This document shows positions 3,013 through 19,884 of a stretch of 24,361 bases of DNA, piece by piece. Origin of the DNA: a virus. The notes under the pieces are model-generated. The model did no database searches. It worked only from the letters and a program-made list of their open reading frames with translations, and was not told the origin of the DNA. Position 1 is the stretch's first letter. Every line of letters begins with the position of its first letter. Both the position numbers and the translations under genes were made by a program. The stretch is taken from positions 1 through 24,361 of the IMG/VR virus record IMGVR_UViG_3300035698_015773. The stretch is one strand, 5' to 3'.

Positions 3013-3013
3013 T

Positions 3014-3742: not shown

Positions 3743-3743
3743 G

Positions 3744-4682: not shown

Positions 4683-4685
4683 TTG

Positions 4686-5045
4686 TTAAATATTTAACTC
4701 CATTAATCCTGTATTTTTGGTCAATTCTATAGCCAAGGCACAAATACCACCTTCTGGCTTTTTGTCATTTATTAGTATTCGTTCACAATGCTTAAGTCCC
4801 ATAATCAAATGATCATAATGTAAACCATAATATTTGAGTTGTTGTATAGTTTGCTCTCTCATAGATTCCGGTCTACCTGTAGTAAGAATGACATTATAGT
4901 TTTTGAAGTACCATTCGTGAAATCTTTCTCTAACTCCCGGTAGCAAATAATCATCGGGAGGGGGAAACGGCAACTTAATTATTTTCCCTAGTTCTCCCCA
5001 GGCCCTAAACAAACATCCATCTATGTCTAAGAATAATGTTTTCAT
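4686..5045 (-). CDS. Small HAD-superfamily phosphatase (paralogue of 1671-2045)
   Basis: This 119-residue protein begins MKTLFLDIDGCLF, the HAD motif I (D7, D9) directly at the N-terminus, followed by LTTGRPES (motif II) and ILINDKKPEGG (motifs III/IV). Like its paralogue it is almost capless. Its ATG overlaps the stop of the E1-beta-like gene (ATGA at 5042-5045), suggesting coupled translation with the thiamine-diphosphate enzyme pair. A phosphatase step on a phosphorylated sugar intermediate is the most likely role. That two copies are kept in one operon suggests two distinct phospho-sugar substrates or steps; this is inference. Confidence 0.82.
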   Translation of the reverse strand: MKTLFLDIDGCLFRAWGELGKIIKLPFPPPDDYLLPGVRERFHEWYFKNYNVILTTGRPESMREQTIQQLKYYGLHYDHLIMGLKHCERILINDKKPEGGICALAIELTKNTGLMELNI

Positions 5046-5941
5046 AAGCTAAGTCCTTGGATAGATTTATAGATTTGCTTTGCAGTAGGAGTAACATTGT
5101 CTAATTTAGGAGCAAATCCGGCAGTCCTATTTTCTAGTCCTAATGCGTGTGATCTAACTCCAGTCCTGTTCATAATAGTATAACAAATATGTTCTGATAT
5201 TCCACAAGTAGTATAGTCTGAGTCAACTACTATAACTTCATCGCTATATTCAATAGAAGCCCATGCCTCATCACTAAGTTCAAACGGAGAGAGTTTATAA
5301 CAATTTACTATATTAATTTTATATCCATCAGATAGTTGTAATAGTTGTCTTGCGCTTATTCTTGCTGCTCCAATAGCAACAATAGTTATATGTGGACATT
5401 TGTGATTAAATAATTCTGGTAGATCTCCTTCTATTCCATAACTACTTCTATGCTCACTACAAAATACAGGATCATCATGTGTAATATAAGAGTCCCAACA
5501 TTCTAGCCATTCTCGGCTAGTCATAGGAGCATATACAGGTATCCCAGGCATATGTGATATAATACTGTGATGGCAGTTACTGGCTACCGGACCAATACTT
5601 CCTTCTGCTGCAGACCCCCTAACAAAGACAGGACATGGTTCATCCCACATTGTTTTTGACTTAGCTGCATAATTTAAGATAGATACGGCGTTGTACCATA
5701 AGAGCCCTTGAAATCTTACCACATAAATAGGTCTCCTACCCATTAGTGCAGCACCACAAACAATACCACTATTAGAAACGTCAGAGATAGGCAATTCTTC
5801 GAATCCTTTATTATTAGGAATATCATCAGGAACAGTATTTACTACAAAACCAGCTCCTAACAACGCTTGACAATAAAGCTGCCCATTATCTTCTACTAGA
5901 TGTTTTCTAATAATAGATTTAATTGTATCGCGTGTTGCCAT
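5042..5941 (-). CDS. Thiamine-diphosphate enzyme, E1-beta / transketolase C-terminal-like subunit
   Basis: The 299 residues follow the order of the pyrimidine-binding plus C-terminal domains of 2-oxoacid dehydrogenase E1-beta and DXS/transketolase-like proteins. An N-terminal region ends in the PISDVSNSGIVCGAALMGRRPIY segment (the family's 'E-GI-GAA-G-A--G-RP' zone). A middle part has HHSIISHMPGIPVYAPMTSREW, matching the H-x(n)-P-x-V-x-P-(x)n pattern. The C-terminal domain begins near ITIVAIGAARISA and continues through the EVIVVDSDYTTCGISEHI stretch. It overlaps the E1-alpha-like gene by 23 bases, so the two should form an alpha2beta2 enzyme. No E2 or E3 subunit is in the window, which points to a decarboxylating carbon-carbon ligation or a transfer onto a sugar rather than acyl-CoA synthesis. 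Confidence 0.83.
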   Translation of the reverse strand: MATRDTIKSIIRKHLVEDNGQLYCQALLGAGFVVNTVPDDIPNNKGFEELPISDVSNSGIVCGAALMGRRPIYVVRFQGLLWYNAVSILNYAAKSKTMWDEPCPVFVRGSAAEGSIGPVASNCHHSIISHMPGIPVYAPMTSREWLECWDSYITHDDPVFCSEHRSSYGIEGDLPELFNHKCPHITIVAIGAARISARQLLQLSDGYKINIVNCYKLSPFELSDEAWASIEYSDEVIVVDSDYTTCGISEHICYTIMNRTGVRSHALGLENRTAGFAPKLDNVTPTAKQIYKSIQGLSL

Positions 5942-6788
5942 TTTTTACTTTTCTCCAAATATCTTTCATTTCATTTTTAATCGGTTCTATAGACTCTAAA
6001 CATTTTGCTGAAGGATTTTGTTTTTTATAGTCTGATAGCCAGTCATATTTGATATCTCCATCTTGTCCAGCTCCAGCATGCCATAAATGACGGTACACTT
6101 GTATATTCAATAAATAAGGATGGTTACTGTTAGCACAATCAATACCGACTTCTATTTCATCATAGACATCACTTAAATTACATTGCTTATTAATACTGCA
6201 TGCATCTATACCCATTCCTAGAGCAACCTCTACTATATCCCAACCGCGTCTTTCAGCTTTAGTAGTTAATAAAGACAGGTTGTTATCTTCGCAAATAAAT
6301 AATATGGGGCATTTATGAGTTACAGCATAGCCCATTGCTCCTAAAGCGTAATCTTCTTCTGCCCCAGCGTCTCCCATAACACATATCGTTAATTCTTGAC
6401 TTGCATGCGCTGCCCCAGCAGCGATAGGTACTTGATCTCCTAACAATCCTGAGTGACCCCACATTTTATAGTTAGTATTTTTAGTATGGCTAATAGAAGC
6501 CGATCCTCCATACCCACGACTACACCCATGCGTTGATCCACATAATTCTAAAGCTAATTTTTCGTATTCACCAGAGAAGGTTAGGTAGTATGAATGGCAC
6601 CTATGTTGAGCAAAAATATTACATTTCTTGATATTGTTTGCCAACAATGCCTTTTTTAGTAATGGAGGAATAAATTCGGTGCCTACAGATAGATATATAG
6701 GTGGATTAACAATTTTTTCTTTTAAAGCTTGAGCTGCTTCATATTCGAAATATCTATTTTTTAAAGCTTGTATAATAACGTTATTCAT
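5919..6788 (-). CDS. Thiamine-diphosphate enzyme, E1-alpha-like subunit
   Basis: The 289-residue protein contains the thiamine-diphosphate binding motif GD-x(2)-AEE...EDNN (residues 139-170, spacing of about 30). It is preceded by GCSRGYGGSASISH and GHSGLLGDQVPIAAGAA, which correspond to the family's 'G..GGS.H' and 'G.G..G.Q.P.A.G.A' segments. This places it with pyruvate/branched-chain E1-alpha rather than with true transketolase. The AQHRCHSYYL segment fits the 'R.H' active-site region. It pairs with the beta-like gene it overlaps. In this context it may build a branched or chain-extended sugar by transferring an activated two-carbon unit to a keto-sugar; that role is inference. Confidence 0.85.
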   Translation of the reverse strand: MNNVIIQALKNRYFEYEAAQALKEKIVNPPIYLSVGTEFIPPLLKKALLANNIKKCNIFAQHRCHSYYLTFSGEYEKLALELCGSTHGCSRGYGGSASISHTKNTNYKMWGHSGLLGDQVPIAAGAAHASQELTICVMGDAGAEEDYALGAMGYAVTHKCPILFICEDNNLSLLTTKAERRGWDIVEVALGMGIDACSINKQCNLSDVYDEIEVGIDCANSNHPYLLNIQVYRHLWHAGAGQDGDIKYDWLSDYKKQNPSAKCLESIEPIKNEMKDIWRKVKNGNTRYN

Positions 6789-7836
6789 TTGTTATTCCTA
6801 ATACGTATATATCTTGATCGCCATTAAATTTTTCTAACATTAATTTTAAACTGTCATAATATAAGACATCTCCTGGTCCACATACTACAAAATCATTACT
6901 AGTTATTGTTCCTTTCAATACAATAAAAGTCCGATATTTATTATTAATAGTTTTATTGTTGACTGTAAGAAATTGTATCTTGCACGATCCAATATAATTT
7001 AGTTGACCGTTAAGTAAAAATTTATATTGATTCGTATAATTAGTATAATGTTTCTCGTTTTCGTATGGCTTACCTTTTCGTCCATATTCGTCTTCTAGTC
7101 TAACGATATCGGTTTTATTGTTTGGCGTTTCTATTTCTAATATTTCACAATTACCAACTACAGCTTGACTACTATGGAATACTCCTTGTCTTATCATAAT
7201 TTTATCAGAAGGAAATAATTTAAAATTATCTGTTAAAAAAGAGGTTTGCACACCCCCGTCTACTACAATTAAACCAGTTTTTTTGTTAGGGTGTGCGTGT
7301 AATGATGTTTGTTTTCCTTGGTTAATTTTCAAATGCCATAGTGCTATATCTTCACTTTCGTACAACAAATATTCTTCACCCCAGGGTTTTTTTACTAATT
7401 TATTTTGAAAGTTTAATTTAGTACTTTTTTTAATATAATGCTGATTTAATATTGTAGAAGAGATTCCTTCTGTATATTCGATATCAATAACCGTACCTCC
7501 CCATGTTTTTAATATTTTTACAACGTCATTTCGTATCTCTTTTTGCCTACCAGTTTTCCAATCGCTACCATGTACAACGTAGTCTGGTCTAATTTTATTT
7601 AAATTGTCAGTATAATCTAACGTTGTTTGTTCAACAACTTTATCTATTCCCTTTAGATTTGAGATTATTAGTTTTCTTTGTTCGTATGTTAAAATTGGTG
7701 TTTTTTTATATTGTTCAATAGCTTTATCAGTTAATAAACCTATTATTACTTTACCATATTTTAACGCTTCTTTAATAATATTTAAATGCCCATGATGCAA
7801 TAAATCAGCACACATTGCAACGTATACAATTTTCAT
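6781..7836 (-). CDS. Nucleotidyltransferase-cupin fusion protein
   Basis: Residues 1 to about 135 are a cytidylyltransferase-fold domain: HHGH at 14-17, TYEQRKLIISNLKGID near 50-65, HGSDW at 89-93, and GISSTIL at 124-130, which completes the family's ISST motif. From about 145 on there is a cupin: KPWGEEYLLYES, then SLHAHPNKKTGLIVVDGG (metal-type histidines H180 and H182), and a GVFHSSQAV segment further on. A second, degenerate beta-barrel may fill the last 80 residues. Glycerol-3-phosphate-, ethanolamine-phosphate- and aminoethylphosphonate-type cytidylyltransferases share the N-terminal domain; the cupin resembles type II mannose-6-phosphate isomerases. One polypeptide may therefore both isomerise and activate a sugar phosphate. 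An AAGGAT ribosome site precedes the ATG. Confidence 0.82.
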   Translation of the reverse strand: MKIVYVAMCADLLHHGHLNIIKEALKYGKVIIGLLTDKAIEQYKKTPILTYEQRKLIISNLKGIDKVVEQTTLDYTDNLNKIRPDYVVHGSDWKTGRQKEIRNDVVKILKTWGGTVIDIEYTEGISSTILNQHYIKKSTKLNFQNKLVKKPWGEEYLLYESEDIALWHLKINQGKQTSLHAHPNKKTGLIVVDGGVQTSFLTDNFKLFPSDKIMIRQGVFHSSQAVVGNCEILEIETPNNKTDIVRLEDEYGRKGKPYENEKHYTNYTNQYKFLLNGQLNYIGSCKIQFLTVNNKTINNKYRTFIVLKGTITSNDFVVCGPGDVLYYDSLKLMLEKFNGDQDIYVLGITNE

Positions 7837-7846
7837 ACTACATCCT

Positions 7847-8443
7847 TTATAGTGGATTGTTAAATATGTCCGCTAGTATTTTCCAATTGCCATATCGCCT
7901 AATTAAAAAGGCTTCTGTATTTCCTAAAATTTGCACTTTTTTCCCTAAGAATTCGACTGTTTTGAGTGGTTCTACTTCCAATGTAAAAAGATTATATCCT
8001 CTTTCTAATGCTGGATGAGCATAGAAATTACCATTTAAAAAAACATTGTTGATATCAATTTTGCTATATTCATAAATGTCTATAGGTATAGCATTTTTGA
8101 CAAAAGTAAAAATACCACGATCTCGTCTAATAAATTGATAGTCTGCTTCTACTAAAGTTGTATTAATAATATCAACTAATTTTTGAACTTCAGTATTTAG
8201 AAATCCAAAGTCTATATCTCCATCGTGAGGTATGAGACTATTATCTCTATAATATCCTAGTAATGTCCCAAAATGCAAAAAATGTTCGATATTAGCTTTA
8301 TCTAAAATAGTAGAAAATTCTACTAATACTTCCTTAGCTGTTTCCATATGGTCTTCTAATTTAATTTCTGACCAAGATCCAACGGGCTGATTATAATAAA
8401 AATTTTGTTTTAATGAATCGGGTGCTATAATTGTAGCTGCCAT
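7847..8443 (-). CDS. LicD/fukutin-family nucleotidyltransferase-fold protein
   Basis: The 198-residue protein carries FGTLLGYYRDNSLIPHDGDIDFGF (residues 58-81), the LicD-family active site with GT and clustered aspartates D74, D76 and D78. LicD enzymes move phosphocholine, and fukutin-type relatives move ribitol phosphate, from a CDP-activated donor onto a glycan. That fits the neighbouring cytidylyltransferase-fold domain at 6781-7836, although that pairing is inference. The IPIDIYEYSK segment and the C-terminal RRYGNWKILADIF match the second conserved zone of the family. AAGGA precedes the ATG. The phospho-substituent cannot be told from the sequence. Confidence 0.85.
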   Translation of the reverse strand: MAATIIAPDSLKQNFYYNQPVGSWSEIKLEDHMETAKEVLVEFSTILDKANIEHFLHFGTLLGYYRDNSLIPHDGDIDFGFLNTEVQKLVDIINTTLVEADYQFIRRDRGIFTFVKNAIPIDIYEYSKIDINNVFLNGNFYAHPALERGYNLFTLEVEPLKTVEFLGKKVQILGNTEAFLIRRYGNWKILADIFNNPL

Positions 8444-8452
8444 ATTAATTCC

Positions 8453-9019
8453 TTATCGCATATTATGTACATATTCACTTTGGTAAGTTTCTTTAGTTGC
8501 CAGTATTTCTAAAAGTTTATCGGTAAATTCTTGATTGTGCTTATAATGGCAACATGTAACGATATTTTTTTGTTGAACTAAATGTTCTTCTGGATAGATA
8601 TATCCAGCATTTTCAATATCGTGTTTAGTTCCTACGTAACCAGTAAGTTTAGTTCCTGTAGGAATAGTTCTGGCCGATAACAAGACTTGAGTTCCATGAC
8701 AAATAGACCCAATAATAGATTTTTTATCTATATTATATCTAACAATTGCCATTATTTCAGCATCAAGTCTCATTACTTCTGGTGCCCATCCACCTGGAAT
8801 AATAATAAGATCATATAGCATTTGCCCACTAGCAACTACTTCTTGTGCTGTTTTATTATATGTAATTGGCGTTCCACCCTTACCTGTGGGATTAGGATAT
8901 TTTCGTTTAGGAGCGAGAATAACGTCTAGTTCTACCCCTTGCTTTTTCATTTCTGCATATGGATGTAAAAATTCTTCATCTTGTACGTCTTGTGCTACTA
9001 GTAATGCTACTTTAGTCAT
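8453..9019 (-). CDS. DJ-1/PfpI-family glutamine-amidotransferase-like protein
   Basis: The 188-residue protein shows the DJ-1/PfpI fold pattern: MTKVALLVAQDVQDEEF at the start with the conserved glutamate (E15/E16), YDLIIIPGGW (residues 69-78), and the nucleophile elbow GSICHGTQ with C107 followed by H108, as in PfpI. Family members include proteases, deglycases, chaperones and hydratases, so the exact activity is open. It is unusual inside a sugar operon; protection of reactive carbonyl intermediates, or action on a keto-sugar made by the neighbouring enzymes, is possible inference. An AAGGA ribosome site precedes the ATG. Confidence 0.85.
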   Translation of the reverse strand: MTKVALLVAQDVQDEEFLHPYAEMKKQGVELDVILAPKRKYPNPTGKGGTPITYNKTAQEVVASGQMLYDLIIIPGGWAPEVMRLDAEIMAIVRYNIDKKSIIGSICHGTQVLLSARTIPTGTKLTGYVGTKHDIENAGYIYPEEHLVQQKNIVTCCHYKHNQEFTDKLLEILATKETYQSEYVHNMR

Positions 9020-9031
9020 AATGTTCCTTTT

Positions 9032-9823
9032 TTATATATATTGTTTAGTTGTAGTTTCTTGATTTCTTTGAATCAAGTTCATTAATGTTTCCATATCTCT
9101 ATTATATATTTCGGTATTTCCCCAACTGTAGCTATTAATTTCTTTATAGAGCCAGTTTTCCCGTGAAAATTCTTCTTCTGTTGGAAACGGTGGAGCTGGG
9201 TCAACAATAGGTAATGTGGTTCCATAAGTAATGTTTTTTGGACATTCAAAAATTGGTTGTCTATGATAATAGGCATACCAGGACATATATAGATCTCCTG
9301 CTCCATTAAAAAATGACGGATGATGAATGACTCCTCCAAGTTCTTCATTGATAGTTTTTTGGGATGCCGCCACCGCCCTAACAAGTGGAAAGGTTGCCCA
9401 TAGATTACATAATATAGCTTTTCCTTTATATCTTATCTTTTGATCTTTGTAGGTTTGCCCAGGATGAAGATGCGGACCAGATATATTAAATCTTTTATTA
9501 CTAGTAGTTTGTTTCATATAATCAAATAGATTGAAAATATTACTATAAGTTATATCATCAGTTAAGAAAAAGATGTATTCTCCTTCAGCATACGGAATAA
9601 GTTTATTAAAACCATAGATTGCTCCATGCCTAAAGTCTTCGGTATAATTTGTAAACTTTTGACAATGACTATCGTTGAACTCATAGGTTACAGGTTCGCT
9701 TGAGTTTATTAAAATTTCAAATTCATAATTATTAGGATTTACAGATGCAAATATACAATCTAATACATTCTTGGAAAATTGTTGAAAGTCTCGTCTTGTA
9801 TTTATTATAAATGTAACTAACAT
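9032..9823 (-). CDS. GT-A fold glycosyltransferase (family 2-like)
   Basis: The 263-residue protein starts MLVTFIINTRRD, a typical first strand of GT2-like enzymes, and has HGAIYGFNKLIPYAEGEYIFFLTDDITY (about 85-112), where TDD takes the place of the DxD metal motif after the A-EGEYI helix-strand. A later SFFNGAGDLYMSW stretch fits the acceptor side of the domain. No membrane segment is visible, so it is probably a soluble enzyme that adds one sugar residue to a lipid-linked or surface glycan. AGAGGA precedes the ATG. Donor and linkage are unknown. It is not obviously related to the three tandem paralogues at 13664-16560. Confidence 0.78.
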   Translation of the reverse strand: MLVTFIINTRRDFQQFSKNVLDCIFASVNPNNYEFEILINSSEPVTYEFNDSHCQKFTNYTEDFRHGAIYGFNKLIPYAEGEYIFFLTDDITYSNIFNLFDYMKQTTSNKRFNISGPHLHPGQTYKDQKIRYKGKAILCNLWATFPLVRAVAASQKTINEELGGVIHHPSFFNGAGDLYMSWYAYYHRQPIFECPKNITYGTTLPIVDPAPPFPTEEEFSRENWLYKEINSYSWGNTEIYNRDMETLMNLIQRNQETTTKQYI

Positions 9824-9834
9824 ATGTATGTCCT

Positions 9835-11358
9835 CTATTTATATATTGGATGATTTTCTAATAAGTTTCGTTTGAGTTTAATCTTATTCATTTTCTTAAT
9901 AGTATCGCATGCATTTGGTCCATATTTATTATAAATTGTTGACAAAATTTTAGGATTAGTCCAATATGTTTCATAAAAATAATCTCTAAAAGCTTCAATG
10001 TCTGATTGAGATAAATAATCTGTCGGAGTAGGTTTATGGTCATAAGAAAGAAATCCAAATTCAGAATATTCTGTAGGGACACTTCCATTATTTTTCATAT
10101 CTAAATAAAGAGGGCTCCCAGGTAAAGCTGTAGAACTGTATACGTTCATATTTAATGTATTTAATTCTATAGCTAAATCTAATGTCGCTTGCATGCTATC
10201 AAAATTATCTTTAGGTAAACCAACAATATAATTAGCACCAACATCCATTCCAGAGGAGTGTATCATATTAACAACTTCTCTTATATTTACGTCTTTAAAT
10301 TTACCCTTTTCTATTTCTAATCTTACTTGTTGGTTGGCTGACTCAATACCCAATGCTGCAACATTTAAACCAGCCTTTAACAATATTTCTAAATATTGTT
10401 CTTTAATGGTGTCAATTCTTGAGTAAAACCAGCCTTTAAATGGATATTGACGTTCTGCCATTAATCTAGCAAGTTCTAAAAAATGTTTAGGTTTCAAACA
10501 AAACATTTCATCTGCTATTTTAATATATTTAACATTACATTCTGCTAAATAATCTAATTGTTTAATTATAAAATTAGGAGACCAATACCTAAAAGTATTA
10601 AAATCTTTAGCCGTTTTTGTTTGATCGTTATCAGTTTTATTTATTATATTTATCATACAAAAGGAACAAGAATATATACAACCTAAACTAGTATATATAC
10701 TAGCGAAAGGACTTCTATCCTTTCCTTGAAAATATGCTTGCCAATATCCAGTTCTATATTTATCTAGAGAAGGCATTAAATCCCACGCCATCCCTGGTAA
10801 ATCATATTCTAACAATTCTTGTGGAACTAATTTTTCAGGAGGGTTTAGGTGAGATATACCATCTTTTTTATAGCCAATACCTTTAACTTGACTTAAATCT
10901 TTTAAGTCTGTAGCTAACAAATTATGTAAAGCATACACCCCTTCATTAGTAAAAACTATATCTATAAAATTATGTTTATCTAATGTTTCCAAAGGTAAAG
11001 CATTAACATGGGGTCCAATAAATGATATTTTATATTCTGGATATAAATTTTTTAATTCTTGTGCTGTTTTTACTGCTCCTGTCATACTGCTACTAGAAGC
11101 ATTAGGATTAGCGCCATAGCAACAAAATAAAACTAATTTAGGGTTTATTTCTTGTATCCTAGTAGTTGTTTCTTGATAAGATAAATTTTCTGCATGCATA
11201 TCTATTATAGCTACGCTAAAACCTTTTGATCTACAAGATTCGGCTAATAAACCAGTCCAAGGAACAGGTTCTTTAACGGAAATATCTTCTGCTAAACCTT
11301 GATACAATTTTCGTTGGGCCGCTGGGGTAACTAACAATAAGTCTAGTTTTTTATTCAT
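9835..11358 (-). CDS. B12-binding-domain radical SAM enzyme
   Basis: The 507-residue protein has an N-terminal Rossmann-like B12-binding region (about 1-150, with PVPWTGLLAESCRSKGFSVAIIDMH and FIGPHVNA near 113-120). A radical SAM barrel follows, with CxxxCxxC as C227, C231 and C234 in SLGCIYSCSFCMI. Barrel features include KYIKIADEMF, the ALGIESANQQVR strand (GGIES-type), and VGLPKDN. Members of this class perform methylations at unreactive carbons, ring contractions and other radical reactions; several modify sugars or antibiotics. In this cluster it may C-methylate or rearrange a sugar. The AT-rich coding style matches its neighbours. The reaction is not predictable from the sequence alone. 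Confidence 0.88.
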   Translation of the reverse strand: MNKKLDLLLVTPAAQRKLYQGLAEDISVKEPVPWTGLLAESCRSKGFSVAIIDMHAENLSYQETTTRIQEINPKLVLFCCYGANPNASSSSMTGAVKTAQELKNLYPEYKISFIGPHVNALPLETLDKHNFIDIVFTNEGVYALHNLLATDLKDLSQVKGIGYKKDGISHLNPPEKLVPQELLEYDLPGMAWDLMPSLDKYRTGYWQAYFQGKDRSPFASIYTSLGCIYSCSFCMINIINKTDNDQTKTAKDFNTFRYWSPNFIIKQLDYLAECNVKYIKIADEMFCLKPKHFLELARLMAERQYPFKGWFYSRIDTIKEQYLEILLKAGLNVAALGIESANQQVRLEIEKGKFKDVNIREVVNMIHSSGMDVGANYIVGLPKDNFDSMQATLDLAIELNTLNMNVYSSTALPGSPLYLDMKNNGSVPTEYSEFGFLSYDHKPTPTDYLSQSDIEAFRDYFYETYWTNPKILSTIYNKYGPNACDTIKKMNKIKLKRNLLENHPIYK

Positions 11359-12328
11359 TATTTATTTGCGCCATCTTATTATATTTTCTTAACATATGAA
11401 AAGGAACATCTAATTTTAAAAATATTTTGACTAATTCATTACATTCTAATCCACAATAACAAAGTTCATAAGTATTTTTAGTTGTTTTTTTGTATATTTT
11501 TTTCTTATATTCTTTATTACTAATATTAATTTGTTCTTTTAAAGATAAATAAATCCAGTCTAAAAGTTCTTTAGTTCCAATAAAAGATATTTTAAGTATC
11601 TTATTATTTTTATAAATACATCCATCTCCATATAAATATCCTAATATATAATATAATTTATTAGTCATATTTGATATATTAGGAGATTTTAAAACTAAAG
11701 ATTTTCGTTCTCCTATACTAAAATTCTTTTGTAAATCTTTATACCAATCTTCTTGTATTCCACCTATACGTAATCTATAATATTTTTTGTTATTTAAAAT
11801 TTCTTCTTTACAATTTCCACTATATTCTAAAATTTGTGTAATATGATTTAAAAAATATCGGTCTATTTCTTTAAAAACTATGCTTAAATATTTAGTCTTA
11901 GATTTTTTATGTTCAAATATACATCCGTCAGCAGCAATTATACCAGCTATATATGAATTAATATTATTGATAGTGCTAAAAAATAATCTATCATATCTAT
12001 TATCATTTCTAGTCATATTTAAAACTTTATTAGCTCTACTCATTATAGAACCTATTGTTCTGTTGGTTAAAAATTGGTTAGATATTTCTTTCACGGTTAA
12101 CTTTCCATAATATTTTTTTAAAATATCGTCTTCTTGATTCGTCCATATGTTATTTTGTAAATTTCTAGATTCTTTAAGAGATCTTAACGGAATATTATAT
12201 TCTTTTATATATTTCCCTATTGTAGTATCATAAGTATTAAAAATTTTTGCTATTTTATAAGTACTGAATTGTTTATTGACATAAAGATCATACAAGATCT
12301 TTTGATCTATATTTAGTTTTTTAGGCAT
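11351..12328 (-). CDS. LAGLIDADG homing endonuclease (free-standing)
   Basis: The 325-residue protein has two LAGLIDADG helices, IAGIIAADG (127-135) and YILGYLYGDG (227-236), about 100 residues apart, as in monomeric double-motif enzymes; the terminal acidic residues D134 and D235 would bind the metals. The N-terminus holds a resolvase-like helix-turn-helix (FSTYKIAKIFNTYDTTIGKYIKEY) and a SANT/Myb-like WTNQEDDILKKYY region, a DNA-binding arrangement shared with the other endonucleases here. It overlaps the radical SAM gene by 8 bases and has GGAGA upstream. No group I intron core was recognised around it, so it appears to be a free-standing mobile gene. Confidence 0.88.
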   Translation of the reverse strand: MPKKLNIDQKILYDLYVNKQFSTYKIAKIFNTYDTTIGKYIKEYNIPLRSLKESRNLQNNIWTNQEDDILKKYYGKLTVKEISNQFLTNRTIGSIMSRANKVLNMTRNDNRYDRLFFSTINNINSYIAGIIAADGCIFEHKKSKTKYLSIVFKEIDRYFLNHITQILEYSGNCKEEILNNKKYYRLRIGGIQEDWYKDLQKNFSIGERKSLVLKSPNISNMTNKLYYILGYLYGDGCIYKNNKILKISFIGTKELLDWIYLSLKEQINISNKEYKKKIYKKTTKNTYELCYCGLECNELVKIFLKLDVPFHMLRKYNKMAQINNE

Positions 12329-12352
12329 AATTTAACTAATCTCCATATAATT

Positions 12353-12376
12353 GTATATAGTTACTATACTAGTATA
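12353..12376. repeat. Two overlapping short palindromes in the gap upstream of the LAGLIDADG gene
   Basis: The 60-base gap between the RmlC-like gene and the LAGLIDADG gene holds tatagt-t-actata (12356-12368) and the perfect 12-base palindrome tatactagtata (12365-12376), which overlap by four bases. They could be an operator, a structured leader or a remnant of an insertion site. The region is very AT-rich, so chance is a real alternative. Confidence 0.45.
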
Positions 12377-12388
12377 TACACCAAAATA

Positions 12389-12883
12389 CTAAAAAGGACA
12401 TGTTTTATAAAATTTCTCTAAGGCTATACCAGCTTTATCTCTATCAGAGACACGCCTTGGTATTAATTTCCAGTTTGGCTGTATAGTTTCATCGTTATAA
12501 TGAATACTCCATTGTTTATCTGCAGGAAAAGTTTCATAATATTCTGTTTGCTTATACATAAATAAACAGGCATGTGTTAAACATTGGTGTGCGTTTAAGT
12601 GATATGGAGGAATTAATACAGATCTTTTCTTATCTTCGGCTAATATTACTTCTTCTCTAATGCGTCGTTTTAAGTCCCAGACTATAAGTTGTAATGATCC
12701 GAAGGGGCAGGTAATATATTTCCATGTTTCTGGATCTCCATGAAAACCGCGCACCCCACCTTTATAAGAAATAGAGCATCTATCTTGAACAAAATTTAAA
12801 CCAATTTTATTGTGATTGTAAAACGCAAATATTTCGCCTCTATCTTCATAGAATGCGTCGTGTTCGAAAATTTCTATTGCCAT
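12389..12883 (-). CDS. rmlC: RmlC-like dTDP-4-dehydrorhamnose 3,5-epimerase family protein
   Basis: The 164-residue protein follows RmlC in order. DRGEIFAFY comes near residue 14; FVQDRCSISYKGGVRGFH (31-48) places the catalytic histidine at H48 in the 'RGxH' motif; then K55, SVLIPPYHLNAHQCL (the 'IPPGFAHGF' segment), and YKQTEYY (110-116), which supplies the acid tyrosine. Family members epimerise C3 and/or C5 of 4-keto-6-deoxy nucleotide sugars, and some are 3- or 5-monofunctional or isomerases. It is shorter than the usual 180 or so residues. It overlaps the methyltransferase gene upstream by 10 bases. No RmlA or RmlB homologue is visible, so the substrate probably comes from elsewhere. Confidence 0.85.
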   Translation of the reverse strand: MAIEIFEHDAFYEDRGEIFAFYNHNKIGLNFVQDRCSISYKGGVRGFHGDPETWKYITCPFGSLQLIVWDLKRRIREEVILAEDKKRSVLIPPYHLNAHQCLTHACLFMYKQTEYYETFPADKQWSIHYNDETIQPNWKLIPRRVSDRDKAGIALEKFYKTCPF

Positions 12884-13695
12884 ACTAATACCATATATCC
12901 TTCATTAAACATATTGCCAAATGTTGTTCGTGAGCAATGTAATATATTTGCTTCCGATGCCATAATATATGAAAGAAAAGTCCCCAAATAATGTCTACTC
13001 TTATGATACTGAATAGCTAGTTGATCAAATGGAGAGTTTTTATCATATAATTCTATTAAAGGTTCAATATGAATTTTATATTTTGCTTCCGATGTCATTA
13101 ATACATATAGGAAATGCTCATAATTTTCTCCTAATTGTTCCATTGCTCCGATTGTTAATATAGCAGAATCGCTCATGTTGCACTTAACTATATCGGGTAG
13201 GACATCCTTATACATATCAAATTTAAAATTATTGATTCTATTTTTTTGTAGTATTTGTAAAGCTGACTCACAAAAATCACTACCACATACATAAACATTA
13301 GGCAATAAATTTCTTAATGCAAGTAAATTATGACCACTTCCACATCCAAACTCAACCGCATTACTTACGTCAATACAATATTTATTAAATATTCTTGTCC
13401 TTAATTCCGAAATATACTTTTGCTCCAATCTATTGTCTGGAGTATGTATAAAACTATGATTCCACCTATAAATATATTTGTTATTATCTGTAAACCACAA
13501 AGGTTCTATTTGTTCTCTATCATTTACAATGCCCCAAATTTTATCCCATTGTTTTTGGTCTGGCTTATCGTGTTGATTAATAATTTGTTCATTAATTTCA
13601 CGCGATAATTTATCATATTGTTTAGTGTCTAATACTGTATAATCAACTCCTAATTCTTTAGGGTCAATTATAATATTTGTGTTGTATTGTGTCAT
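12874..13695 (-). CDS. Class I SAM-dependent methyltransferase
   Basis: The 273-residue protein contains the SAM-binding motif I VEFGCGSGHNLLAL (114-127). A motif II acidic residue follows in VYVCGSDFCESAL, and a motif IV-like strand occurs in SDSAILTIGAMEQLG. The N-terminal 110 residues are helical with a WNHSFIHTPDNRL segment of unknown role. It overlaps the third tandem glycosyltransferase gene by 32 bases and the RmlC-like gene by 10 bases. In a sugar operon it is probably an O-, N- or C-methyltransferase acting on a nucleotide sugar or a terminal glycan residue; the target is inference. Confidence 0.82.
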   Translation of the reverse strand: MTQYNTNIIIDPKELGVDYTVLDTKQYDKLSREINEQIINQHDKPDQKQWDKIWGIVNDREQIEPLWFTDNNKYIYRWNHSFIHTPDNRLEQKYISELRTRIFNKYCIDVSNAVEFGCGSGHNLLALRNLLPNVYVCGSDFCESALQILQKNRINNFKFDMYKDVLPDIVKCNMSDSAILTIGAMEQLGENYEHFLYVLMTSEAKYKIHIEPLIELYDKNSPFDQLAIQYHKSRHYLGTFLSYIMASEANILHCSRTTFGNMFNEGYMVLVWQ

Positions 13696-14629
13696 AGTTA
13701 AGTTCGTATTTTTTTAAGTAGCAATTATATTTAATAAAATGCTTTAGTTTGTTATTTAAACATAGTTGATTTTCATCAAAATGTTTATTGTCGTGTACTA
13801 AAATCTTTCTACATTCTTCATATCCAAAGCCATAATCATAAGCCTGTTGAGTAACTAATTTTTTGACAATAGAAGTTGTTCTATATGGATGATCGTAAGT
13901 CGCTCCACCTGCTCTCTGCCAATTTAAAGTACTAAATCCAGAAGATTGGCCATCTAAACTAATAGTATGGTCAATGATGAAGTCTTTTAGTAGTACCCAT
14001 TGTAATTGTAAAGAGGCGCATATAAAAGAAAAGGTGCTTTCTGTACAGTGACTAGCAAAGATGTCTGGATAACATCTATCAAAAAATTTAAAAATTTCGT
14101 TACTAACTAAATTAACATGAGTCCCCATACCTTTGCCGACTGGTATAATATAATTCCCATCCTTAAACATTTGTTCTCTTGCATATTCGTCATCTTTGTT
14201 AAACCTTCCTATCCCAAGTCCATTAAAATATTCAGTGTCATTTGCTGGTTGTGGAGTTACCATACCATATTTATTGGTAGACATTACATCCCACATACTT
14301 TGTAGCAACGTACTGTTTCCGGTAAAGTTAGATCCCGAATCCATATAGAGATAAGCACCGCACTCTTCATTTCTTTGTACGTATTGTAGAATTGAATGGT
14401 TGAATGTTACATTCACAGGATGAATTTCATTTACAAAATTATATGAAACCGTATCTTTAAAATACTCTTTCAACTTTGCCTGTTGTTTCTCAGTAAGCAT
14501 ACATCCAGATATAATAACTCTAAACGAATCAAAAGTTTGATTTAATATACTACTAATCGATTTTATGTAACATTCTGTGTTATCTTTTCCAGATATATTA
14601 CAACAGTTATATACTACTAATATATTCAT
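13664..14629 (-). CDS. Tandem glycosyltransferase paralogue 3 (GT-A-like, divergent)
   Basis: This 321-residue protein shares the layout of the two genes upstream: an N-terminal LVVYN strand, INxTFNHSIL (NVTFNHSIL here), AYLYMDSGSNFTGN in place of the DxD region, PVGKGMGTHVNLVSNEI, CCPDIFASHCTEST-like FASHCTESTFSFICASL, and a YEECRKILVHDNKHFDENQLCLN end. MDSGS is a plausible metal site and differs from the C-D form in its paralogues. It is the most diverged of the three and has probably acquired another donor or acceptor. Its start overlaps the upstream paralogue by 23 bases, so the genes are translated in series. No membrane segment is visible. Confidence 0.75.
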   Translation of the reverse strand: MNILVVYNCCNISGKDNTECYIKSISSILNQTFDSFRVIISGCMLTEKQQAKLKEYFKDTVSYNFVNEIHPVNVTFNHSILQYVQRNEECGAYLYMDSGSNFTGNSTLLQSMWDVMSTNKYGMVTPQPANDTEYFNGLGIGRFNKDDEYAREQMFKDGNYIIPVGKGMGTHVNLVSNEIFKFFDRCYPDIFASHCTESTFSFICASLQLQWVLLKDFIIDHTISLDGQSSGFSTLNWQRAGGATYDHPYRTTSIVKKLVTQQAYDYGFGYEECRKILVHDNKHFDENQLCLNNKLKHFIKYNCYLKKYELNYDTIQHKYYN

Positions 14630-15578
14630 ATTCTATATCGCTGTAATCAAATACATCTTTAGATAAATATAAATTATCTCTTATGTATTCTTTTAGTTTA
14701 TCGTTTATACAAAATTGGTTATCGTCAAATTGTGTAGGGTTATGCATAACAATTTGTTGACATTCTTCGTAACCTAATCCTAATTCAATTGCCTCTCTAT
14801 TTTTAAAGATAGGAAGTAGTGTGTCTCCTATAAAAGGATGGTCATAAGGTGGTTGTTCACGTTTCTCTGGTCTAAAGCCCGCACTAGGTACGTCAGTAGT
14901 TGGAATATGGTGAATTAAATAATTCTTAGATACCGCCCAATTTAATTTTAAAGCGGCAGCAACAAATGTCATAACAGATTCTGTACAATATCCAGCAAAT
15001 ATGTCCGGACAACACTTGCCGTAATAGTCCATTATTTTGTTGCTCCAAAAATTAACATGTCCCCCCAACCCTTTTCCGATAGGAACAATATAGTCCTGGC
15101 CATCTTTAAACATCTCATGTCTAGCACGTTCGTCATCTATTCCATGTCGGCCTCCACCTAATCCTAAACCGTAAGCATATACAGCATCAATATCTACCTG
15201 GGCAGATAAGATGCCATAATTTTCGTTATTCTTCATGACATTAAACATACCTTGAATAATATTTGGAGACTTAATTAAAGAGTCGCACGACATATACACA
15301 TAAGCGTCGTAGTCACCCAATCTTTTTTTGCATTCTAACATAGAATGATTTTGGGTTATATTTATAGGAAGGACTTCTTTTATATGATTAATATAGCACG
15401 CTGGAAATTTCTTGTGTAATACTTCTATAGTGCGTGGGGCTGGCATACAAGCAGATATTACAATATCTAATTGCCCATCAAATTCTTGAGATACTAATCT
15501 CTCTAAAAAGTATGGATATTCATGTGTATTGTCTTTAGCTATTCCACATATATTGTATGTGACTAAAAGTTTATCCAT
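14607..15578 (-). CDS. Tandem glycosyltransferase paralogue 2 (GT-A-like)
   Basis: I chose the ATG at 15576-15578 (323 residues, MDKLLVTYNICG) because it aligns with the start of the upstream paralogue; the frame extends further but inside the neighbouring gene. It shares with that paralogue LLVTYNICGI, VVSAC/VISAC, LPINxTxNHSxLE, YMSCDSLIKSP (the DxD position as C-D), AYGLxLG, HVNFxSNKI, CCPDIFAGYCTES, IPSAGFRPE-like and LGYEECQ. Such long collinear identity means a tandem duplication. The fold resembles GT2-type GT-A enzymes, but the match is loose, so the family call is moderate. It overlaps its neighbours at both ends by 8 and 23 bases. Confidence 0.75.
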   Translation of the reverse strand: MDKLLVTYNICGIAKDNTHEYPYFLERLVSQEFDGQLDIVISACMPAPRTIEVLHKKFPACYINHIKEVLPINITQNHSMLECKKRLGDYDAYVYMSCDSLIKSPNIIQGMFNVMKNNENYGILSAQVDIDAVYAYGLGLGGGRHGIDDERARHEMFKDGQDYIVPIGKGLGGHVNFWSNKIMDYYGKCCPDIFAGYCTESVMTFVAAALKLNWAVSKNYLIHHIPTTDVPSAGFRPEKREQPPYDHPFIGDTLLPIFKNREAIELGLGYEECQQIVMHNPTQFDDNQFCINDKLKEYIRDNLYLSKDVFDYSDIEYEYISSI

Positions 15579-16560
15579 TATTCTTATCGGTCCATGTATT
15601 ATTGATAGTACTATAATCAAATATGTCTGGGGTTAAATATAGATTTTCTTTGATATATTCTTTTAGTCCTTCATTTATACAGAATTGTAGATCATTAAAT
15701 TGTGATGGATCATGTACAAATAAATTTTGACATTCTTCATATCCTAGTCCCAGTTTAATAGCTTCTGGATTTGCAAAAATAGGTAATAAACTTTCTTGAC
15801 GGAAGGCGTGATCGTAGGCAGGTTTGGGAGGGACACGTATTTCAGGCCTAAATCCAGCACTAGGAATATCCATGCCTCCTTGATGATTTGGGTGATGTTT
15901 AATAGTAAAATCTTTAGATATTACCCAATTTAATCTTAATGCAGCACATATAAAACTCCAAACTGATTCGGTACAATATCCTGCAAATATATCTGGGCAA
16001 CATCTGCCATAATAATTCAATATTTTATTACTGTAAAAATTGACATGGGCGGCGCAAGCTCTGCCTACTGGTACGACATAATCAGTACCGTCTTGAAACA
16101 TTAAGTGTCGTGCATATGCATCGTCTCCATGATGTCTGCCAAGTTTTAATCCATAAGCATAACAAGAATCTACGTCTATTTGAGCAGATACCATTCCATA
16201 ATTATTATTATACTTAGTTAAATTAAATAAGCCTTGTAAACAATCTGGCGATTCCAATAAGGCATCACATGTAATATATACGTGAGCATCGTAGTCTCCA
16301 AGTCTTTTTGTTCCTTCTAGTATAGAATGATTGAAAGTAACATTAATAGGCAGAGTATCATGTATTTCATTGTAATAACAGTTAGGGAAAGCCTGTTTTA
16401 GAATTGGTAAGGTTCTTTCGTTTGGCCTGCAGGCAGATACAACAATATCTAAATCGCCATCAAATCGTTGCTTTGTAATAGGTTCTAGAAATTCTAAATA
16501 TTCATTCGTATTGTCTGTTTCTATTCCACATATATTATAGGTTACTAATAGTCTGTCCAT
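15571..16560 (-). CDS. Tandem glycosyltransferase paralogue 1 (GT-A-like)
   Basis: The 329-residue protein is the first of three collinear paralogues. The N-terminal MDRLLVTYNICG is a first Rossmann strand. LPINVTFNHSILE and YITCDALLESP give the nucleotide-sugar/metal region with C-D instead of D-x-D. HVNFYSNKI, CCPDIFAGYCTES and KHHPNHQGGMDIPSAGFRPE follow, and the C-terminal part ends LGYEECQNLFVHDPSQF. Compared with paralogue 2 it has a few extra residues in the histidine-rich KHHPNHQGG loop. By context it is a sugar-transferring enzyme of the same operon. A different nucleotide-sugar-handling role cannot be excluded, because the metal motif is not canonical. Confidence 0.75.
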   Translation of the reverse strand: MDRLLVTYNICGIETDNTNEYLEFLEPITKQRFDGDLDIVVSACRPNERTLPILKQAFPNCYYNEIHDTLPINVTFNHSILEGTKRLGDYDAHVYITCDALLESPDCLQGLFNLTKYNNNYGMVSAQIDVDSCYAYGLKLGRHHGDDAYARHLMFQDGTDYVVPVGRACAAHVNFYSNKILNYYGRCCPDIFAGYCTESVWSFICAALRLNWVISKDFTIKHHPNHQGGMDIPSAGFRPEIRVPPKPAYDHAFRQESLLPIFANPEAIKLGLGYEECQNLFVHDPSQFNDLQFCINEGLKEYIKENLYLTPDIFDYSTINNTWTDKNNG

Positions 16561-16562
16561 TT

Positions 16563-17300
16563 TTATTCCCTTAATTTACTTTTTAAAAGATTGATCTCTT
16601 TAGAATAATCCATATTAAAAGGATTTAATTTTGCGGTATGAGATTGTAACTGATATTGTCTCTGCCTATATTCTGAAGCTGTTTGGTCAGGATGATTAAT
16701 GTCGTGCAGCGTGGTATGGCCGATATGGTTAAAAACTATTTCCCTCATTGGTATAATTCTATCTACAGCATTATATATCGTATATGTTGCTACGTCTCCC
16801 CCTAATGAAATCCAATGTTCATTAATTAAATATCCCAAGGCTCTTAAACATTCCTGCGAAAATATTGGAGCATCACTAAACCAACCTAAAGAGGTAGTTA
16901 GTGTCTTATCTATACTGGTAGAGTCAACAGCCCCAATTGCTATTCTATCTGTTTTTATTTTAAAGTATTCTTCAAATTTTTGTAGAGCAATAAGATCCCA
17001 ATTTTTAGTAATGATATGGCAATCGTCTCCTAGTGGCCAAATATATTTGCCTATCGCTTTTCGTGCTAATTTATTAACATTTATATGTATATTACATTCT
17101 CTTTTAGAAACAATTGGTTCAAAAAATGTGTAATATTTTTGTAAATTTTCTAAAGCATCAACAGAAATTTGATCATCATCATCAAAATTTACTAAAACTT
17201 CTAATTCCTTAAGATTGTTAGCTGTAGTTTTAATACGATAGAGCATTTCTTGCAGTAATACTATGCGATTACGTGAATTAAAGATAATAGAAAAATTCAT
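16563..17300 (-). CDS. GT-A fold glycosyltransferase (family 2-like)
   Basis: The 245-residue protein begins MNFSIIFNSRNR, a GT2-type first strand, and continues LEVLVNFDDDDQ, the typical second strand with clustered aspartates. KYIWPLGDDCHI (about 89-100) gives the DDx metal site, and a later FNHIGHTTLHDINHPDQT stretch supplies conserved histidines. AGGA lies five bases before the ATG, which overlaps the stop of the upstream epimerase gene (ATGA at 17297-17300). It is probably a soluble or peripherally bound transferase working on the same glycan as the paralogues immediately downstream. The specific sugar is unknown. Confidence 0.77.
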   Translation of the reverse strand: MNFSIIFNSRNRIVLLQEMLYRIKTTANNLKELEVLVNFDDDDQISVDALENLQKYYTFFEPIVSKRECNIHINVNKLARKAIGKYIWPLGDDCHIITKNWDLIALQKFEEYFKIKTDRIAIGAVDSTSIDKTLTTSLGWFSDAPIFSQECLRALGYLINEHWISLGGDVATYTIYNAVDRIIPMREIVFNHIGHTTLHDINHPDQTASEYRQRQYQLQSHTAKLNPFNMDYSKEINLLKSKLRE

Positions 17301-18151
17301 GCAATTCCTTCCACATAATCAATAATGGCCAACTTAGTAGGTTTACAATCAATATTAGACTTTAACGATACATATTTATCGTCTCCTACCCAATCTCCTT
17401 TTTCTCCTAACCATCGTATTGGCTTATGTATTCCGATTATTTCCATGATGAAAGTTGCCATTTGTAGTATATTTATATTGTCGTTTGGGCTTATGTTTAA
17501 GATTATGTTTTTCCATGATAAAGACCATGTAGTAGCATATATACTATCTTCTATGCCGAGATAGGGCTTAGTTGAGCCTGGACTATTACCTATCAACTCT
17601 AAATATTCACTACCTGAACGAAGTTTCCTAACAATGTCATACATTACTCCATGTCTCGCCTTTTTCCCTAGATGTGTGACATATCGCAATATCACATAAC
17701 TATCAATCTTATTGTATGATTCGGCGTATAATCTTACGAGATTTTCACAATAGAGTTTACTTAGTCCGTAAATAGAACTAGGCTGGGGAATGTGATAAGG
17801 AGTTCGAGGGGAAGAATGTGTACCGTATACAGTACCAGATGATGCTAGAACAAATTTAGAATGTTTGGGAGTACTATCCAATATTCGATGAGTCATCACT
17901 ATATTGTTCTGACTTACACTGTGATCGAAAAATTTTACTTGAGTGGTTGCTGCTAAATGAATGATTATGTCTGGATTAATTTCTTTGAATAAAGTATCTA
18001 TTTTATCTTTAGATAAATCTAGTTCATAGTGTGGATAAGGTACATCTGGTTTAGAACGAGAGATACCAATTACATCACGTCCTTGAGCATATAAAGCCGG
18101 TCCTAATTCAGATCCTATCAGTCCAGTGTCACCAGTTATAAGAATTTTCAT
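17297..18151 (-). CDS. NAD-dependent epimerase/dehydratase (extended SDR)
   Basis: The 284-residue protein has the Rossmann motif GDTGLIG (7-13), the IIIHLAAT strand (62-69), and the catalytic S105, Y128 and K132 (SSGTVYG and YGLSK). This is the extended SDR pattern of nucleotide-sugar epimerases, dehydratases and reductases. Substrate binding is suggested by the STKPYLGIEDSIYA segment. It is the first sugar gene after the tmRNA region in the direction of transcription, and its ATG overlaps the stop of the small HNH gene (ATGA), so the endonuclease has been fitted into the operon without breaking coupling. Exact activity is open. Confidence 0.88.
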   Translation of the reverse strand: MKILITGDTGLIGSELGPALYAQGRDVIGISRSKPDVPYPHYELDLSKDKIDTLFKEINPDIIIHLAATTQVKFFDHSVSQNNIVMTHRILDSTPKHSKFVLASSGTVYGTHSSPRTPYHIPQPSSIYGLSKLYCENLVRLYAESYNKIDSYVILRYVTHLGKKARHGVMYDIVRKLRSGSEYLELIGNSPGSTKPYLGIEDSIYATTWSLSWKNIILNISPNDNINILQMATFIMEIIGIHKPIRWLGEKGDWVGDDKYVSLKSNIDCKPTKLAIIDYVEGIA

Positions 18152-18477
18152 TTATTATGTTTCGCTACAGCCTTACACATAGTAATAGTATCTTCTACAG
18201 AAAAATTATTTCTAGCGTAATTAAAAGACACACTTACAAATTTCACGTTTCCTATCCTATATCCTATTTTATTATCTATACGGTCGAGAGAGGCAGTATA
18301 AATGCTTAATGGTTTAGCATAAGCATGAGTCCTTAGTTCTAATTGTAAGTTAGAATATGGACATTTTCCCTTTTGTTTCTCCCACAATTGTTCAAGATAT
18401 TCTTCCGTGAGATTTGTTTCTTGCCCTTTCCTTTTAGATTTTCCTTTAACAACTTTTAAATACCACTTAAAGTTCAT
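18148..18477 (-). CDS. Minimal HNH-type endonuclease domain protein
   Basis: The 109-residue protein is collinear with the nuclease domain of the larger HNH gene at 3014: CPYSNLQLEL matches CALSGLSLKF, ASLDRIDNKIGYRIGNVKFV matches ASLDRIDSSIGYLKDNIQWI, and a CKAVAKHNK end matches the CKKIAKYKRI end. It lacks the N-terminal DNA-binding part. At the place of the late catalytic histidine (WIHKDIN) it has FVSVSFN, a serine-for-histidine change with the asparagine kept; such variants occur in HNH relatives, so loss of activity is possible but not certain. It lies just 3' of the tmRNA and has AGGACA upstream of its ATG. Confidence 0.8.
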   Translation of the reverse strand: MNFKWYLKVVKGKSKRKGQETNLTEEYLEQLWEKQKGKCPYSNLQLELRTHAYAKPLSIYTASLDRIDNKIGYRIGNVKFVSVSFNYARNNFSVEDTITMCKAVAKHNK

Positions 18478-18719
18478 CTAATTTTGTCCTGTCCTATCCT
18501 AAATGCTTCAGTGGACTAGGGCGGTGCGACCCGCCGTCTTGCACACTTATAATTACTACTTCTACGTACATAGTCAATTAATTCACAATTGACAGTATAG
18601 ATTCATTAGAATCGTCAGCCATTTTATTGTTAGGCTCAATTTTCCGAAATTATCGGTAGTCAACTATTCAGTAGTACTGGCGGATTTTTTATCGGTTCAT
18701 GCTAACCTGCAACCTAAAA

Positions 18720-18752
18720 TTAGGCAGCTAAACAATATGTATAGTTCTTCAC
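18720..18752 (-). other. tmRNA proteolysis-tag reading frame
   Basis: Downstream of PK1 the frame GUG-AAG-AAC-UAU-ACA-UAU-UGU-UUA-GCU-GCC-UAA encodes VKNYTYCLAA. Ten residues ending in LAA is the usual form of tmRNA tags (compare ANDENYALAA of Escherichia coli). UUAGUU just before GUG resembles the UAGUC determinant before the resume codon. GUG as resume codon is an inference by spacing; AAG is an alternative. The LAA end should be read by ClpXP-type proteases. Confidence 0.75.
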
Positions 18753-18765
18753 AACTAACAAGTCA

Positions 18766-18802
18766 GGTCGTCTTATTTATAGCAGCCTAACGACCAACTG
18801 CT
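18766..18802 (-). other. PK1 pseudoknot of the tmRNA
   Basis: On the minus strand AGCAG (18798-18802) pairs with CUGCU (18781-18785), and GGUCGU (18790-18795) pairs with ACGACC (18766-18771), giving two interleaved perfect stems with a nine-base AU-rich loop (AUAAAUAAG region). The place and form are those of tmRNA PK1, directly before the tag frame. Confidence 0.85.
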
Positions 18803-18867
18803 AATACGCAATAGTAATCTCCATTTGCAATCGATTTCAATTCTAGCCCATATATAGTGGTATTGTT

Positions 18868-19884
18868 CTAAAAATTTAATTTCTCTGTCAAAATATCATT
18901 AATGTTATTAAAGTGGTCATAATTAATTATTAACAATGGTATTTTATTTTTTCTACAATAGTCTTCTTTAATCTTGTCTCGTTTTTTACTATTTATAAAA
19001 CCTTGTTTAGTCTTATGAAAATATTCCGTAAATTTAAAATGTTGCTCCCCTTGATATTCTATTAGATGTAGCTTATCATGTTCCCAATAAGCAAAATCAA
19101 ATATTAAATTATTAATAAATTTGCAGTCTGGTAAAATATACTGAGGTTTAAATGTTACTTGCTTATCTATTAAAAATTGTTCAATTACTTTTTCTCCTAA
19201 AGAACTACTACAAGACCAACATTCACTATGCTTATGATTTTCTGGTATTTGTTGAAAATCGCCATGTATTGGACATGTAATGGTTACTTTAGTTTTAGAA
19301 TTAATATAGTCAACTTTATCATAGTTGTATTTATTATTATGAAATATAGAACTGGCTTCTATAAATTTAGTTTTATTTATTTCTTGCTGTATCAAATAAT
19401 CATCTTGTAAACAATTAGGACAATTAACACCTCTCAAATGATAATATGGTATTTGTTTAAATTTACCATGTTTTTTACATATAATAGTTAATGGTTTCTG
19501 GCTATGTATGTAAATTGTATCACTATAGTCATATCTGTTACCAAATATAGCGATTGCTTTTTCAATAAAATATTTTGTTGTAGTATTTTTATTAGCGGTA
19601 CATAAATTTAGCTTAACAGCTTTGTTCCTTATTATATGAGTAGTTCTATTTTTTAACAATCTTTCAGTTTTTTTTCTGTCAGAATGATAATATTTTTGTA
19701 ATATAGATAATTCTTGATCGGTCCACACTATATATTTTTTAGCTAAATTCAATTTTTTAAAACGATGATAAATACCATTATGAGTTCGTCCGGGCAATAA
19801 TTTACACATATCAACTATCGATATTTTATTATGATTGTCAATTAATATGTTATCTTCTTTTTTAGTCCACTTATACCCTCTCAT
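18868..19884 (-). CDS. Vsr-like/PD-(D/E)XK homing endonuclease with SANT and zinc-binding repeats
   Basis: The 338-residue protein has two N-terminal Myb/SANT-like units (YKWTKKEDNILIDNH near 4-18 and VWTDQELSILQKYY near 53-66). Two cysteine/histidine repeats follow, of the form F...YDY...Y.......I.C..HG.F.Q.P..HL....C..C (about 105-158 and 172-225). The C-terminal nuclease has LIFDFAYW and LIEYQGEQHF (candidate D263, E276, Q278) followed by KRDKIKEDYCRKNKIPLLII. This is the domain order of many phage homing endonucleases. It stops 19 bases before the 5' end of the tmRNA and has GGAGA before its ATG. It is clearly related to the endonuclease at 21009. Confidence 0.82.
   Translation of the reverse strand: MRGYKWTKKEDNILIDNHNKISIVDMCKLLPGRTHNGIYHRFKKLNLAKKYIVWTDQELSILQKYYHSDRKKTERLLKNRTTHIIRNKAVKLNLCTANKNTTTKYFIEKAIAIFGNRYDYSDTIYIHSQKPLTIICKKHGKFKQIPYYHLRGVNCPNCLQDDYLIQQEINKTKFIEASSIFHNNKYNYDKVDYINSKTKVTITCPIHGDFQQIPENHKHSECWSCSSSLGEKVIEQFLIDKQVTFKPQYILPDCKFINNLIFDFAYWEHDKLHLIEYQGEQHFKFTEYFHKTKQGFINSKKRDKIKEDYCRKNKIPLLIINYDHFNNINDILTEKLNF

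Follow-up and report, generated by a model that had tools for sequence, protein, structure and literature searches.

Genes for tmRNA (ssrA; RF00023) are known from bacteria and phages (PMC9004378, PMC5966550). They have been counted in 402 of 18,146 phage genomes (PMC9004378), and the initial annotation of the DNA described here, which called them rare in phages, overstated the case. Several kinds of nuclease genes are associated with such RNA genes. In the phages T4 and T6, SegB promotes the inheritance or amplification of neighbouring RNA genes (PMC13096335, PMC2988022). Group I introns interrupt tmRNA genes in the T loop, are self-splicing and, in some cases, encode LAGLIDADG endonucleases (PMC11915505). 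In mycobacteriophages, a tmRNA and HNH genes occur close together within tRNA/tmRNA arrays; as far as the excerpted text of that report goes, the HNH genes are scattered through the tRNA arrays, and a tmRNA-specific family or a fixed position is not described (PMC5966550).

The DNA analysed here (“the window”) is a viral record in IMG/VR, a contig of 24.4 kb (24,361 bases). Its tmRNA gene shares with described bacterial and phage tmRNAs the one-piece architecture, the G3-U70 pair, P2, PK1, a tag frame ending in LAA and the T stem, but differs from them in a 6-nt T loop, an altered D part, a GUG resume codon, an ACTG tail, a score under the Rfam cut-off and in being missed by ARAGORN. Directly downstream lies an HNH endonuclease gene whose family resembles the homing endonucleases that phages encode as separate genes near their tRNA genes, such as SegB, in being a sporadically distributed, free-standing nuclease beside RNA genes of the translation system. 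Seg proteins are of the GIY-YIG type; the family described here has instead an HNH fold (closest to PacI), accompanies one RNA, the tmRNA, at its 3′ end, and occurs also in permuted tmRNA genes and in bacterial chromosomes. With the group I introns it has in common that mobile nuclease genes are tied to the 3′ part of tmRNA genes; in the window, however, the tmRNA match contains no intron, and the mature RNA does not include the nuclease gene.

What looks new is the HNH neighbour at the tmRNA 3′ end, phage tmRNAs and LAGLIDADG-bearing tmRNA introns being already known. Searches of a collection of open-access papers yielded no report of a tmRNA-dedicated free-standing HNH endonuclease. Cultured phages contain hardly any members of the family, and this may explain why the association has gone unreported. 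The pair bears on why some phages carry tmRNA and offers a testable answer, namely that tmRNA would owe its spread, at least partly, to a homing endonuclease that targets it or carries it along, as has been proposed for SegB and tRNA genes.

A divergent one-piece tmRNA gene on a viral contig

The main genes of the window all lie on the minus strand and comprise a glycan-synthesis cluster (glycosyltransferases, a GHMP kinase, epimerases, LicD, a radical SAM protein and a dTDP-sugar epimerase), several putative homing endonucleases and a RuvB/clamp-loader-like ATPase. The initial annotation had described a minus-strand, endonuclease-rich region of non-chromosomal appearance, in agreement with the viral record and with neighbours that are phage-like or endonucleases. 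It took the endonucleases as a mere sign of a phage; by way of the tmRNA-associated HNH family, this setting proved to be the most informative part of the locus. The tmRNA gene and its elements are as follows, all on the minus strand.

18509–18849, minus strand: full-length one-piece tmRNA gene (ssrA) with the tail ACTG in place of CCA; supported by Rfam, helices and fold z-score
18843–18849, minus strand: acceptor stem, 5′ strand GGGCTAG; 7 of 7 pairs with CTAGTCC at 18519–18513, including the G3-U70 wobble
18513–18519, minus strand: acceptor stem, 3′ strand CTAGTCC; the acceptor stem is identical in jumbo-phage tmRNAs
18805–18830, minus strand: P2 helix, 5′ strand; 18 bp in three runs with 18568–18539
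18539–18568, minus strand: P2 helix, 3′ strand; pairing checked letter by letter
18766–18803, minus strand: pseudoknot PK1; TAGCAG/CTGCTA (6 of 6) and GGTCGT/ACGACC (6 of 6), together 12 of 12
18720–18752, minus strand: tag reading frame GUG..UAA, VKNYTYCLAA; read directly, preceded by UUAGUU and ending in LAA-stop
18520–18535, minus strand: T arm GGCGG-GTCGCA-CCGCC with a non-canonical 6-nt T loop; T stem GGCGG/CCGCC, 5 of 5 pairs

The RF00023 match runs from 18849 to 18509 on the minus strand and covers model positions 1–374 of 374 with 42.0 bits (E 2.8e-15, 801 bases scanned), falling short of the curated gathering score (47 bits). A gathering-level Rfam scan and ARAGORN both make no tmRNA call in the window. 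The predicted fold is more stable than those of 100 of 100 dinucleotide shuffles (minimum energy, z −4.5), and a chance match or a pair of tRNAs is ruled out by the full-length helices together with the tag frame. The window, hence, contains a one-piece tmRNA gene on a viral contig, and this RNA is a new, divergent member of tmRNA.

The call of a tmRNA gene inside a phage genome is, in this way, borne out by the full-length match, the paired helices and the viral record, and of the elements listed with it, the 7-bp acceptor stem, P2 and PK1 can be confirmed letter by letter and the LAA-ending tag by direct reading; in the 3′ tRNA-like half, the T stem pairs fully and the T loop is non-canonical. 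The initial annotation had proposed to abandon the call at a covariance score below threshold; formally the score is below it (42 versus 47 bits), but the E-value of 2.8e-15 and the pairing over the full length uphold the gene. Its suggestion to run ARAGORN did not bring confirmation, since that program misses this tmRNA, while compensatory changes of the kind that it asked for are found: acceptor stem, PK1 and T stem stay paired with other letters in related phage tmRNAs, PK1 for instance in the loci L077, L079, L082 and L098 (compared loci are given as L numbers). That standard finders miss divergent phage tmRNAs is of practical weight; here, ARAGORN finds none and the Rfam cut-off excludes the gene.

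P2 is fully paired (5 of 5, 7 of 7 and 6 of 6), and the stretch where PK2 to PK4 would lie has several hairpins without a clear assignment to these pseudoknots. The tag frame (GUG AAG AAC UAU ACA UAU UGU UUA GCU GCC UAA) starts 13 nt past PK1, in register with the preceding UUAGUU, has no start codon of its own and ends hydrophobically, as is typical of degradation tags; its resume codon is GUG, compared with the usual GCN. The G3-U70 pair of the acceptor stem is an alanine identity feature. Non-canonical are, besides the resume codon, the T loop GTCGCA, the D part, which reads TTGAAATCGAT with GA replacing GG, and the tail ACTG without an encoded CCA; together, these traits could reduce tmRNA function. 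The same T loop recurs in the HNH-linked L201, and GTCGAA is found in L205 and L077, in each case with other stem sequences; therefore, the form in the window is probably functional and not a sequencing error. That the RNA might supplement or replace host trans-translation, or tag proteins, as initially suggested, is plausible.

BLASTN of the window tmRNA against cultured phages gave no tmRNA match, and an exact search with the tmRNA motif TTGACTATGTACGTAGA returned zero matches. Among pattern searches for phage tmRNAs, a narrow T-arm pattern retrieved one contig only, and a looser one retrieved tmRNAs of jumbo phages. Eight of the latter (L082, L091, L093, L101, L115, L116, L121, L130) have an acceptor stem identical to that of the window; their T arms are standard, and GEVNLALAA is an example of their tags. 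In another phage clade (L077–L079), the T arms are divergent.

The HNH family at tmRNA 3′ ends

Two endonuclease genes flank the tmRNA.

18868–19884, minus strand: putative homing endonuclease gene (PHROG 559, E 3e-44), ending 18 nt upstream of the tmRNA
18148–18477, minus strand: HNH endonuclease gene, 109 aa (PHROG 3322 endonuclease, E 6e-22), with its start codon 35 nt past the acceptor stem

When the window proteins were compared with 132 fetched loci, the downstream HNH protein had relatives in seven of them, six being next to a tmRNA; the upstream endonuclease was rejected as a tmRNA-linked gene, with 0 relatives near other tmRNAs in the same loci. For this reason, IMG/VR was searched with the HNH protein alone, and the best 80 relatives, forming 45 clusters at 80% identity (44 of them assessable), were inspected. 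A one-piece tmRNA lies directly 5′ and on the same strand in 62 of these 80 loci (a structural scan recognized 58; sequence, Rfam or ARAGORN added the other four). In a further 12 the tmRNA is of the permuted two-piece type and the HNH gene occupies its intervening segment; in six of these, the end of the HNH gene, with its stop codon, overlaps 8 nt of the 5′ acceptor strand. The remainder comprises two HNH genes convergent with a tmRNA 3′ end, one at a distance of ~0.6 kb, two without a tmRNA and one locus starting inside the HNH gene. Counted by cluster, direct adjacency holds for 42 of the 44 assessable (34 one-piece, seven permuted and one convergent). As a background rate, the one-piece scan gives a hit at 0.8% of randomly chosen places and in 0.25% of upstream regions after shuffling; with ARAGORN as the sole criterion, a tmRNA is confirmed at 38 HNH loci from 17 clusters.

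In bacteria, a profile of the family gave two strong matches among 84,980 genomes, one in Calothrix parasitica NIES-267 and one in a Verrucomicrobiota MAG; in each of these genomes a single full-length tmRNA was found, and the HNH gene directly follows its 3′ end. The protein is present in 16 of 293 Cyanobacteriales genomes, and a tmRNA is directly 5′ of it in all 15 fetched cyanobacterial loci as well as in L280, obtained from a phylum-wide draw; the gene usually starts just past the tmRNA terminator, and one copy (L232) has internal stop codons. Among 388 screened Verrucomicrobiota genomes, the MAG is the sole positive. Altogether, 17 loci were read from searches of bacterial genomes with the HNH alone, and 17 of 17 have the gene directly 3′ of a tmRNA. 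The HNH family is, hence, found almost only at tmRNA 3′ ends, in phages and some bacteria, and its adjacency to tmRNA in dozens of phages and in some bacteria suggests a selfish gene specialized on tmRNA.

PHROG endonuclease families are matched by 25 of 25 family members, with no match to Pfam HNH. The predicted fold (pLDDT 90) is that of an HNH enzyme, with PacI as the nearest structure (prob 1.0, E 0.009). In alignments, the window protein lacks the N-terminal zinc-finger part that its relatives have. In a tree, phage and bacterial tmRNA-linked HNHs group together, and HNHs of crAss-like phages, which are not tmRNA-linked, fall inside this group as the sister of the short window protein. 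Among cultured phages, the closest relatives (up to ~43%) are likewise crAss-like, and those inspected do not adjoin a tmRNA. Given the missing zinc-finger part and this place in the tree, the window copy may have another target or may be decaying.

As a separate observation, the cyanobacterial protein (L228–L242) is ~340 aa long with two tandem HNH domains, compared with the single domain of the phage protein. In L234, the cyanobacterial tmRNA beside the HNH gene looks like a recombinant, having the 5′ acceptor strand GGGGCCG of one cyanobacterial type and the 3′ half (AGGCTCC) of another.

Proposed spread of the tmRNA–HNH pair and competing readings

The explanation that we consider the most probable, with good though not full confidence, is that of a structurally intact phage tmRNA accompanied by a tmRNA-dedicated HNH endonuclease that spreads by intronless homing. 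The RNA most likely acts as a tmRNA: it would be alanylated through its G3-U70 acceptor stem, work with the SmpB of the host and enter ribosomes that have stalled on broken messages during infection, where addition of the tag VKNYTYCLAA would direct the product to host proteases. A search of 35 viral records, most of which carry a tmRNA or are related to carriers, found no SmpB; host SmpB would, thus, be needed. The HNH protein, probably a homing-type endonuclease that travels with the phage tmRNA, would cut HNH-free tmRNA genes near their 3′ end, and repair would copy the HNH gene along with some or all of the tmRNA next to it; in this way, the pair could pass between phages and occasionally enter bacterial chromosomes.

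Presence of the HNH gene is sporadic, as seen in the Cyanobacteriales and from empty sites in jumbo phages. In L082 and L091, the HNH gene lies between the tmRNA and the next gene; in L116, L130 and L093, the tmRNA is followed directly by that gene, placing the insertion point a few bases past the tmRNA 3′ end. These empty sites come from jumbo-phage relatives, the window locus itself being without an empty-site partner. The tmRNA of L082 is ~98% identical to those of L116, L130 and L093, compared with ~74–91% (mostly 74–85%) for the homologous flanks; between L115 and L082, the flanks are closer and the tmRNA is ~92% identical. Such over-similar tmRNAs in divergent phages fit an exchange of the tmRNA gene, as judged from these identities, while part of the similarity could be due to purifying selection.

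A different role for the nuclease is conceivable, in which its targets would be standard-T-arm tmRNA genes of the host chromosome or of competing phages; the phage's own tmRNA would resist cutting by its altered T arm and take on the rescue of ribosomes. The standard GTTCRANYC T arm is missing from about 25 of 41 phage clusters with a linked HNH gene (or from 22, leaving out three that are of alphaproteobacterial type) and present in each of the 29 cyanobacterial tmRNAs without HNH that were read; moreover, the tmRNA of the HNH-minus L077 is nearly the same as those of the HNH-plus L078 and L079, with the T arm as the main difference. Yet HNH-plus cyanobacteria as well as L082 and L091 keep a standard T arm, the sample of HNH-free phages is small, and L077, although without HNH, also has an odd loop; we regard this reading as unlikely. 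Its extension to a nuclease and a resistant RNA through which phages would contest the control of trans-translation, by cutting the tmRNA genes of hosts and competitors, appears rather unlikely. As a strict marker of the HNH gene, the T-loop change was rejected on account of the same standard T arms and the odd loop of L077.

Alternatively, the HNH gene might reside at the tmRNA 3′ end without targeting the tmRNA, simply because landing there is safe, tRNA and tmRNA genes being used in the same way by integrases. RNA-gene 3′ ends are indeed known integration sites (PMC11915505), and the cyanobacterial HNH genes start just past the tmRNA terminator. A mere landing place, however, accords poorly with a family that adjoins tmRNA in 42 of 44 clusters from phages and 17 of 17 bacterial loci but not the far more numerous tRNAs, and with HNH genes in the intervening segment of permuted tmRNA genes, again directly past the acceptor end. 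We hold this to be improbable.

Equally improbable, in our estimate, is a decaying or repurposed RNA, such as an inhibitor of host trans-translation. Such a fate would suit the short, altered T loop, the missing equivalent of G19, the GUG resume codon, the lack of an encoded CCA and the score below the Rfam cut-off; moreover, the tag-less tmRNA of phage DS6A inhibits the host tmRNA (PMC11915505), and the relatives L036 and L037 carry a tag-less form. Against this, the helices and the LAA tag frame are all intact in the window, and T loops of 6 nt are shared by L201, L205 and L077, whose stems differ in sequence. A misassembled host gene as the source of the tmRNA is unsupported, the record being viral, without tRNA, and its neighbours all phage-like or endonucleases.

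Related phage tmRNAs and the glycan-synthesis cluster

Many phage tmRNAs among L133–L212 have T loops of 6 or 8 nt or a G53-C61 pair that is swapped, and standard finders cope badly with such forms. Tag-less mini-tmRNAs of 81 nt, resembling the one of phage DS6A, occur in L036 (1501–1581; IMGVR_UViG_2716884398_000001:3956-4036) and L037 (1501–1581; IMGVR_UViG_3300030333_006551). They consist of the tRNA-like part only, with no tag or pseudoknots, score 65 and 64 bits, above the Rfam cut-off, and have a P2 that is changed yet paired. Permuted two-piece tmRNA genes are present in L041 (1311–1607), L043 (1255–1581) and L044 (1277–1582), phages that are kin to the window by their glycosyltransferases. 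An HNH gene fills the segment of a permuted tmRNA in L177 (2620–3392), L165 (2656–3452), L149 and L160 (both 2653–3439) and L174 (2608–3400).

IMG/VR protein searches with the RuvB-like and the transketolase/E1-like proteins of the window gave no relatives. The glycan-synthesis cluster (267–17300 in the window; also L001–L035) is long, with ~15 genes whose order is kept across many IMG/VR phages, and includes a transketolase/E1-like pair, the GHMP kinase, radical SAM protein, LicD and dTDP-sugar epimerase, and three tandem glycosyltransferase-like paralogues.
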